From: Verrucomicrobiia bacterium
GTDB taxonomy: Bacteria > Verrucomicrobiota > Verrucomicrobiia > JADLBR01
DNA: 64,000 nt
Direction: 5' to 3'
Assembly: GCA_020847615.1 (NCBI GenBank)
Contig: JADLBR010000010.1
Span: forward strand, 1 to 64,000
The position numbers and the translations under genes were made by a program. Numbering within the stretch: position 1 is the stretch's first letter; every line of letters starts with the position of its first letter. Shown here in pieces: positions 25,263 to 29,875 of this stretch. A model generated the notes under the pieces. It saw only the letters and a program-made list of their open reading frames with translations. It made no database searches and was not told the origin of the DNA.

Positions 25263-25448
25263 TCACCAGCTGGCCTTTATAACGCCCGGCAGCTCGCCCC
25301 GCAGGGCGCGCTCCCGGAACTCGATGCGGCTCAGCCCGAAGCGCCTCATGAACGCGCGCCGCCGGCCGCTCACCGTGCAGCGATTCACGCGCCGCACTTT
25401 GAACTTGGTCTTCTTGCTCTGCTTGGCGATCCAGCTTTTCTTGGCCAT
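25263..25448 (-). CDS. rpsN: 30S ribosomal protein S14, short type, cysteine-depleted
   Basis: Sixty-one residues, the length of the short zinc-type S14, with [19 protein letters not shown] and KASW. The short type normally has four zinc cysteines in CxxC...CxxC; here only the first remains (RCTVSG), and the other three positions are Ser, Ser and Glu (LSRIE). It therefore cannot hold zinc in the usual way. S14 is essential for the 30S head. The position between rplE and rpsH is normal. Confidence 0.93.
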
Positions 25449-28341: not shown

Positions 28342-28791
28342 TCATTTCGCGGCCTTCGGGCGCGCGGAACCCTTGCCCCCCGCCGCGGTTGCCTCGGCGG
28401 GTTCCTGGGCGTCGGCGGCCGCCTCTTTCTGCGGCGCGCGCTTGCGGCGCTCCGGCGGCGGCTCGTCGGTCAATATGATCCTGATGTGAGACGTGCGCTT
28501 GCGGATGGGCGAGGCCGAGCCACGGGCGCGCGGCATGATCCGCTTGATGGTCGGCCCCTCGCCGACGACCGCCTCCTTGACGCGCAGGGTCGCGGGCTTG
28601 AGATCGTTGTTGTGCTCCGCGTTGGCGATGGCGGACTTGAGCGTCTTGGTGATGAGGCGCGCGGCCTTCTTGGATGAAAAGCGCAGCACGTCCAGGGCAT
28701 CCGAGGCCATCAGGCCCTGGATCTCCCGCGTGACCTCGCGCGCCTTGAACGCCGAGATCCTCACGAATCGCGTTACCGATCTGACTTCCAT
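28342..28791 (-). CDS. rplV: 50S ribosomal protein L22
   Basis: Protein of 149 residues. The L22 core (1-110) has FKAREVTREIQGLMASDALDVL, NAEHNNDLKPATLRVKEAVV and PRARGSASPIRKRTSHIRIIL, whose loop reaches into the exit tunnel. About 35 extra basic/alanine-rich residues follow. The upstream neighbour is not rpsS but an inserted lipoprotein gene. Confidence 0.96.
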   Translation of the reverse strand: MEVRSVTRFVRISAFKAREVTREIQGLMASDALDVLRFSSKKAARLITKTLKSAIANAEHNNDLKPATLRVKEAVVGEGPTIKRIMPRARGSASPIRKRTSHIRIILTDEPPPERRKRAPQKEAAADAQEPAEATAAGGKGSARPKAAK

Positions 28792-28803
28792 AACAATCTC
28801 ACT

Positions 28804-29589
28804 TCACTTCTTTTCCAAAATCTCACTTTTCACCGTGCTGACCCGGGCGTCGTCGCCCTCGGCGACCACGGTCCGCTCGGCGGCCCTCTCGACGATCGCG
28901 CCGAGGACCGACTCGCGCACGTCCACGGCCCGCGCCATCGCGATCAGCCGGCCGCCGCGCATGATCTCGAAGACCATGCCGACCTTCGCGCCCTGCCGCC
29001 ATCCCACGTTCAACACCGCCAGGCTCAGGGCCGACTTGTAGTCGAGGACCCGCGCCGCCACGAGCGTCCCCTGGCCCGGCGCCGCCGCATCGCCCTTGCT
29101 TTCGACGAGGCCCTGGGACGTCCGCATCTGCGCCTCGACCTGCGCGCGGAATTCCGGATCGATGCCGCGCGCGCTCTTGAGCACGCCCTGCATCATCTCC
29201 ACCATGACCGCGAGCTGGGCGACAGTCTCCTGCCTCCGCTTCTCGGACTGGTAGAGGTCCCGGACCGCCGCGACCACCTTTTCGCGAAGCCTCGCCTCGT
29301 CGCCCGTCAGGGCATCGACGCCAAGCGCCTCGTCGCGCAGCCGCAGGTCCATCCACTGCCGCCGGAAGAAATCCGCCTCCGCGTTGGCGAGCTCGAGGCT
29401 CTCGCTGAGGGCCCGGATGGTCTTGTTCTTGACCTCCAGGTCCCTGTAGAGGGACTCCAGCTCGCGCTCGACGCGGGCGATCCTCTCGTCGTCGCCCGCG
29501 CCCCGCTGCGGCGCATCTTCGCACTTCAAAGAACAGGCGGCCAACATGGCCGCGACTCCAACCAGCGTCCGTTGGACGGGACGGCTCAA
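28804..29589 (-). CDS. Lipoprotein-like coiled-coil protein inserted between rpsS and rplV
   Basis: Protein of 261 residues from a TTG at 29589, 7 bases after rpsS. The N-terminus has a basic start, a hydrophobic stretch and a lipobox (LAAC), so it is probably a lipid-anchored envelope protein. Residues 35-145 form a long charged coiled coil (RIARVERELESLYRDLEVKNK). Residues 172-245 form a compact beta-rich domain (VAARVLDYKSALSLAVLNVG, GAKVGMVFEIMRGG) like modules in exported PVC proteins. No ribosomal function is apparent. The start at 29547 would lose the signal. Such a gene inside the S10 operon is very unusual. Confidence 0.75.
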   Translation of the reverse strand: MSRPVQRTLVGVAAMLAACSLKCEDAPQRGAGDDERIARVERELESLYRDLEVKNKTIRALSESLELANAEADFFRRQWMDLRLRDEALGVDALTGDEARLREKVVAAVRDLYQSEKRRQETVAQLAVMVEMMQGVLKSARGIDPEFRAQVEAQMRTSQGLVESKGDAAAPGQGTLVAARVLDYKSALSLAVLNVGWRQGAKVGMVFEIMRGGRLIAMARAVDVRESVLGAIVERAAERTVVAEGDDARVSTVKSEILEKK

Positions 29590-29596
29590 GGTCCGG

Positions 29597-29875
29597 CTAT
29601 TTCACGGCCTTGGCCGTGTGGGCACCGTGCGCCTTAAAGGTGCGGGTCGGCGAGAATTCGCCGAGGCGGTGGCCCACCATGTTTTCCGTCACGAACACCG
29701 AGTGAAAAATCTTGCCGTTGTGGACCAGGAAGGTGTGCCCCACGAAGTCCGGCGTGATCATCGATCGCCGCGACCACGTCTTGATGGGCTTCTTCTGCTT
29801 CCCCTGATTCATCCGCTCGATCTTCTCGAGCAGGTGGTAATCAACGAAAGGTCCCTTTTTTAGCGAGCGTCCCAT
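29597..29875 (-). CDS. rpsS: 30S ribosomal protein S19
   Basis: Protein of 92 residues: [39 protein letters not shown] and [14 protein letters not shown]19 binds the 30S head with S13. It follows rplB as usual; rplV, normally next, is displaced by the lipoprotein-like gene. Confidence 0.97.

Follow-up and report, generated by a model that had tools for sequence, protein, structure and literature searches.

A predicted exported coiled-coil and beta-barrel protein encoded between rpsS and rplV in the S10 operon of Verrucomicrobiota

Ribosomal-protein operons of the spc type also contain non-ribosomal genes, namely secY, adk, map and infA, and the S10 gene order ranks among the most conserved in bacteria. 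The described proteins closest to the product of the gene reported here are FlgT, TsaP and MreC. FlgT, the Vibrio flagellar H-ring protein, contains a C-terminal domain (PF16538; PDB 3w1e, 8z5n) that is an exported six-stranded barrel. TsaP, the secretin-associated protein of the Myxococcus type IV pilus (PDB 3jc8), is periplasmic and contains both a FlgT-C-like end and a LysM peptidoglycan-binding domain. MreC (PF04085) combines a membrane anchor, a coiled coil and a periplasmic beta domain.

A sequence-only reading of the window, i.e., the whole stretch of 64,000 nucleotides analysed here from a Verrucomicrobiia bacterium, had placed a separate gene with short spacers between rpsS and rplV, and this gene was confirmed. 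The inserted ORF comprises 261 codons on the minus strand, with its stop codon at 28804-28806 and a TTG start codon at 29589, the sole in-frame start ahead of the hydrophobic core. Its spacers are 7 nt from rpsS and 12 nt to rplV. The features of the locus are as follows.

29597..29875, minus strand: rpsS (uS19), upstream neighbour of the inserted gene
28804..29589, minus strand: inserted gene for an exported coiled-coil/beta-barrel protein, 261 aa, TTG start (from the ORF, homologues and dN/dS)
29533..29589, minus strand: signal peptide ending in the lipobox LAAC (C19; +2 residue Ser), from the translation
29089..29496, minus strand: coiled-coil/helical region, residues 32-167, from the AlphaFold2 model; missing in short members
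28834..29064, minus strand: C-terminal beta-barrel domain, residues 176-252, the conserved core, with near-invariant VR and G...G...GM motifs
28342..28791, minus strand: rplV (uL22), downstream neighbour of the inserted gene

Same-site homologues, a dN/dS of 0.156 and a codon usage like that of ribosomal proteins indicate that this is far more than a chance ORF. Elsewhere in the window, a 61-aa uS14 (25263-25448) was observed to lack the zinc-binding CxxC pairs that are usual in the short form of uS14.

The N-terminus of the product, LSRPVQRTLVGVAAMLAAC, is a signal peptide with a lipobox, read from the translation as L16-A-A-C19; the sister species retains both the Cys and the signal, with the lipobox MAAC. 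The window protein thus has the signal peptide, lipobox and invariant Cys of a bacterial lipoprotein. It does not qualify as a ribosomal protein, as it carries a signal peptide and matched no ribosomal protein in Pfam or NCBIfam. In the AlphaFold2 model, helices occupy residues 32-88, 98-139 and 145-167 and precede a confidently predicted barrel that covers residues 176-252 or thereabouts. The mean pLDDT is 81, with most barrel blocks at 90-96, and a pTM of 0.76 was obtained for the barrel modelled alone. The combination of lipobox, coiled coil and beta domain described in the sequence-only reading therefore holds for the window protein, but neither the lipobox nor the coil is a family-wide trait. 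In a simple scan of the N-termini of 49 homologues, crude enough to misclassify some (e.g., 'IACSL' in L004), a lipobox was found in 7, an AxA-like site in 26 and neither in 16. Lipidation is clearly not universal across the homologues: the lipobox is confined to the window genus and a few others, most homologues having an AxA-type signal peptide or an N-terminal membrane helix, and "lipoprotein" was given up as a definition of the family. Nor is the coiled coil essential, since one clade consists of signal plus barrel only.

No curated family in the searched libraries names this protein family. The window protein gave no Pfam or NCBIfam hit of note, and its barrel alone gave no Pfam hit at E<=1. 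FlgT_C was matched weakly by 11 of 42 members (best E 1.7e-4), and no match above the curated cut-off was found in the window genome. When a barrel profile was searched against the PDB, TsaP was the best match (E 1.4e-4), followed by weak matches including MreC. Foldseek searches with the predicted barrel returned the N-terminal barrels of F1-ATPase alpha/beta, the LPHT ring and FlgT at TMq of about 0.6-0.69; the FlgT structures 3w1e and 8z5n gave TMq 0.67-0.69 (3w1e 0.69), at E of only about 0.002-0.01 and with F1 barrels scoring equally. The model thus suggests a fold of the FlgT C-terminal/F1 N-terminal type. Function is not deducible from the barrel, because the similarity to FlgT and TsaP is sub-threshold and the fold is common to very different proteins, including F1-ATPase; a small barrel fold used in ring-forming assemblies is a lead, not a function. 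Unlike FlgT, the inserted protein has no other FlgT domains and no flagellar context, and it adds a coiled coil and the S10 location. Unlike TsaP, it has no LysM domain: LysM was absent from the matches of the window protein and, when 28 members were scanned against Pfam, from the 25 families that came up most often. With MreC it shares the overall architecture and an 'N.G...G...GM' motif, and a few members weakly matched the MreC profile; however, it has one small barrel only and no mreB/mreD neighbours. Identity with MreC was rejected, as the window protein had no MreC match and the true MreC of the genome is encoded on another contig (141.5 bits).

In the search of relatives, the gene was present in 37 of 57, mostly in single copy. 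It lies between uS19 and uL22 in all 30 class loci that were fetched, and the other matches among relatives adjoin rpsS by coordinates. Among 20 class genomes without a strong match that were inspected, rpsS and rplV are in most cases separated by a short spacer. The copy in G002 is divergent and 238 aa long; those in G012, G035 and G043 measure 111-123 aa and consist of signal peptide and barrel, the coil being absent; and G051 has a short form at matching coordinates. Counting these, a same-site homologue occurs in 39 of the 56 class relatives having rpsS. A scan of named genomes, on which alone the taxon names used here rest, yielded 56 loci, including those of Akkermansia muciniphila, Chthoniobacterales, Candidatus Udaeobacter and other Verrucomicrobia; 54 of these are in the S10-operon position (49 with both neighbours, 5 cut by a contig end). 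In one genome (G005:C34:24267-24986), the gene at the S10 site contains an in-frame TGA, attributable to decay or assembly error. Several Chthoniobacterales loci (L068:2925-3030; also L063, L058 and L071, among others) have a dispersed repeat, about 32 nt long, in the interval separating rpsS from the gene. The repeat recurs elsewhere in the same genomes, sometimes as inverted pairs, and when read through gives an 'NFRFSIFDFRL'-like N-terminal extension.

The GTDB phylum Verrucomicrobiota takes in Kiritimatiellota and Lentisphaerota, and occurrence at the same site beyond the class Verrucomicrobiia, proposed as a check in the sequence-only reading, was borne out. Among profile matches from other classes of the phylum, 19 of the 20 loci fetched and checked for context occupy the S10 site, both neighbours being present in 15; the exception is a tandem pair of paralogues. 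The gene was found within this one phylum, to which the search was confined. In many genomes of other classes (L132-L159, L160-L189), a break in the S10 operon was observed to part rpsS from rplV, and the genes that follow rpsS are unrelated ones. When 30 genomes were probed with uS19, 24 had no rplV in the 1.5 kb following rpsS, and the two genes can lie far apart on one contig (1.2 Mb in G447, 660 kb in G396 and 37 kb in G468). In 16 of the 20 split operons with rplV located, G447 among them, the gene is directly 5' of rplV, indicating that it travels with rplV, a retention that may reflect few independent events; the four exceptions belong to one family (f86).

Paralogues lie outside the operon. 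Akkermansia contains a tandem pair beside dnaX/ybaB-like genes, Opitutaceae-like genomes contain a single paralogue adjoining a pgi-like gene, and L129 contains a tandem pair; coordinates noted for paralogues are L190:4378-6017, L051:2285-3064 and L197:4240-5574. All have a membrane helix, a coiled coil and the same barrel, which makes this combination a wider theme in the phylum. Since they keep it away from the S10 site, the architecture appears to work in trans.

The gene tree was found to be in strong agreement with the ribosomal-protein tree (Mantel r 0.83), with 33 of the 54 splits shared versus 0.14 by shuffled labels. Between two species of the window genus, dN/dS was 0.156 for the whole gene and 0.077 for the barrel. 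In the ribosomal-protein tree of 71 loci, the absences form seven clades, corresponding to about seven losses of the gene, so some lineages can do without it. The short forms and two gene-less genomes share one clade, which looks like stepwise erosion of the gene there; this clade was observed to range from a short gene (L043, L048 and L049) to a residual spacer of 90-120 nt (gene-less L035 and L039). The entry of the gene between rpsS and rplV seems to predate the divergence of the Verrucomicrobiota classes, with vertical inheritance thereafter. The sequences show where the gene sits, that it is conserved, vertically inherited and under purifying selection, and that its product has an export signal and, by prediction, a barrel fold; site, conservation and export signal are firmly established. 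A gene confined to the window genome and decaying, the finding on which the sequence-only reading would have fallen, was not encountered: same-site homologues occur in many genomes, and the dN/dS is low. A recent insertion or pseudogene was likewise rejected, given the widespread same-site homologues, the purifying selection and the agreement of the two trees.

The CAI of the inserted gene is 0.638, compared with a leave-one-out range of 0.53-0.87 for the operon's own ribosomal proteins. Of the 27 other long ORFs in the window, 26 score lower (background median 0.466); the high value partly reflects GC3 (0.91). No ATG candidate start precedes the hydrophobic core in 46 of 76 loci, a soft figure given mechanical start assignment and many related loci, whereas ATG is the start codon of both rpsS and rplV in 75 of 75. 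This difference was read as lowered translation relative to the ribosomal proteins. A promoter/terminator scan of the junctions gave nothing convincing, Rfam gave no match for a hidden RNA element, and the RNA structure ahead of rplV is not significant (z -0.53). The fold at the start codon of the inserted gene is mildly stable (z -2.1). At the 5' end of the gene, 0 of 12 fourfold sites are changed in the genus pair; a specially conserved 5' end was dropped as a candidate because the starts of rplV (1 of 13), rplB (2 of 11) and rpsC (1 of 9) are similar and the effect is absent in Akkermansia. The spacers and codon usage make co-transcription and a tie to growth rate, as the sequence-only reading proposed, plausible.

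The explanation that we tentatively favour is an exported periplasmic scaffold with growth-coupled supply from the S10 mRNA at reduced translation. The protein would sit in the periplasm with its N-terminus holding the membrane, by a lipid anchor in the window genus and by a signal peptide or membrane helix elsewhere, and the coiled coil would act as a spacer between the anchor and the barrel. Expression would most likely be from the S10 mRNA, with the GTG/TTG start and coupling to rpsS lowering translation. The output of an envelope scaffold could thereby scale with that of ribosomes while staying at a lower stoichiometry, so that envelope growth would match growth rate. Of this, we infer the co-transcription, the lower stoichiometry, the scaffold role and the growth coupling. 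We consider it doubtful that the arrangement amounts to a Verrucomicrobiota-wide hard-wiring, in which the supply of a core periplasmic scaffold is tied to ribosome synthesis via the S10 mRNA and weak start codons.

The gene may instead be a passenger kept by operon inertia, i.e., one ancestral insertion that is hard to remove cleanly from an essential operon, encoding a useful protein whose position has no regulatory meaning. We rate this as rather unlikely. The approximately seven losses leave clean, short rpsS-rplV spacers, showing that the position is not essential, and the co-retention with rplV could come down to the few events mentioned above; on the other hand, one site has been kept across classes, the gene stays with rplV after rpsS has separated, and both the codon usage and the non-ATG starts seem adapted to this position.

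It is improbable that the protein is a ring partner of the TsaP/FlgT kind, one that would build or anchor a ring in the periplasm encircling either the secretin of a type IV pilus or type II secretion system or some other machine of the envelope. The barrel resembles those of FlgT and TsaP, every gene-bearing class relative has a secretin, and family f10 is without both. However, within the class the link to secretins comes down to a single clade, and 11 gene-lacking class relatives have secretins, as do gene-lacking genomes of other classes (f86 and f104). Across class relatives and other classes, the phyletic pattern of the gene does not track secretins, and the protein has neither a LysM domain nor flagellar or pilus gene neighbours. 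In a further reading, the gene is a cis-acting regulator: translation or export of its product would control how strongly the rplV operon behind it is expressed, in the way that SecM governs secA, or would hold the ribosomal-protein mRNA at the membrane. The short spacers, the export of the product and the retention of the gene immediately 5' of rplV would fit, but this is very improbable because the aligned C-terminal tails are variable with no shared arrest motif of the SecM type, the conserved part is a folded barrel under strong protein-level constraint, paralogues of the same architecture lie elsewhere, and neither significant RNA structure before rplV nor an Rfam match was found.

Growth-coupled supply of a periplasmic scaffold remains the most economical reading. 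That an exported protein is encoded beside rplV throughout the phylum hints strongly at an envelope component that is widely needed and has gone undescribed, and synthesis of a part of the envelope probably keeps pace with that of ribosomes across Verrucomicrobiota. The gene also serves as a marker for the phylum and as a caution for annotation pipelines that assume rpsS-rplV adjacency. Its role and the coupling of ribosome and envelope are directly testable, as the gut bacterium Akkermansia muciniphila carries the gene and Verrucomicrobium spinosum probably does. For V. spinosum, transposon and targeted mutagenesis and an essential-genome study exist (PMC12283558).

In the literature, no description was found of the gene, nor of an rpsS-rplV insertion in Verrucomicrobia. 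A parallel is found in the spc-type operons, in which a non-ribosomal gene is likewise co-encoded with ribosomal proteins, giving growth-coupled supply, and in which secY also serves the envelope. Unlike secY, adk, map and infA, the inserted gene encodes an exported periplasmic protein and lies inside S10 between rpsS and rplV. Overall, the arrangement extends the known theme of non-ribosomal genes in ribosomal-protein operons, here with a protein family that none of the searched libraries names.
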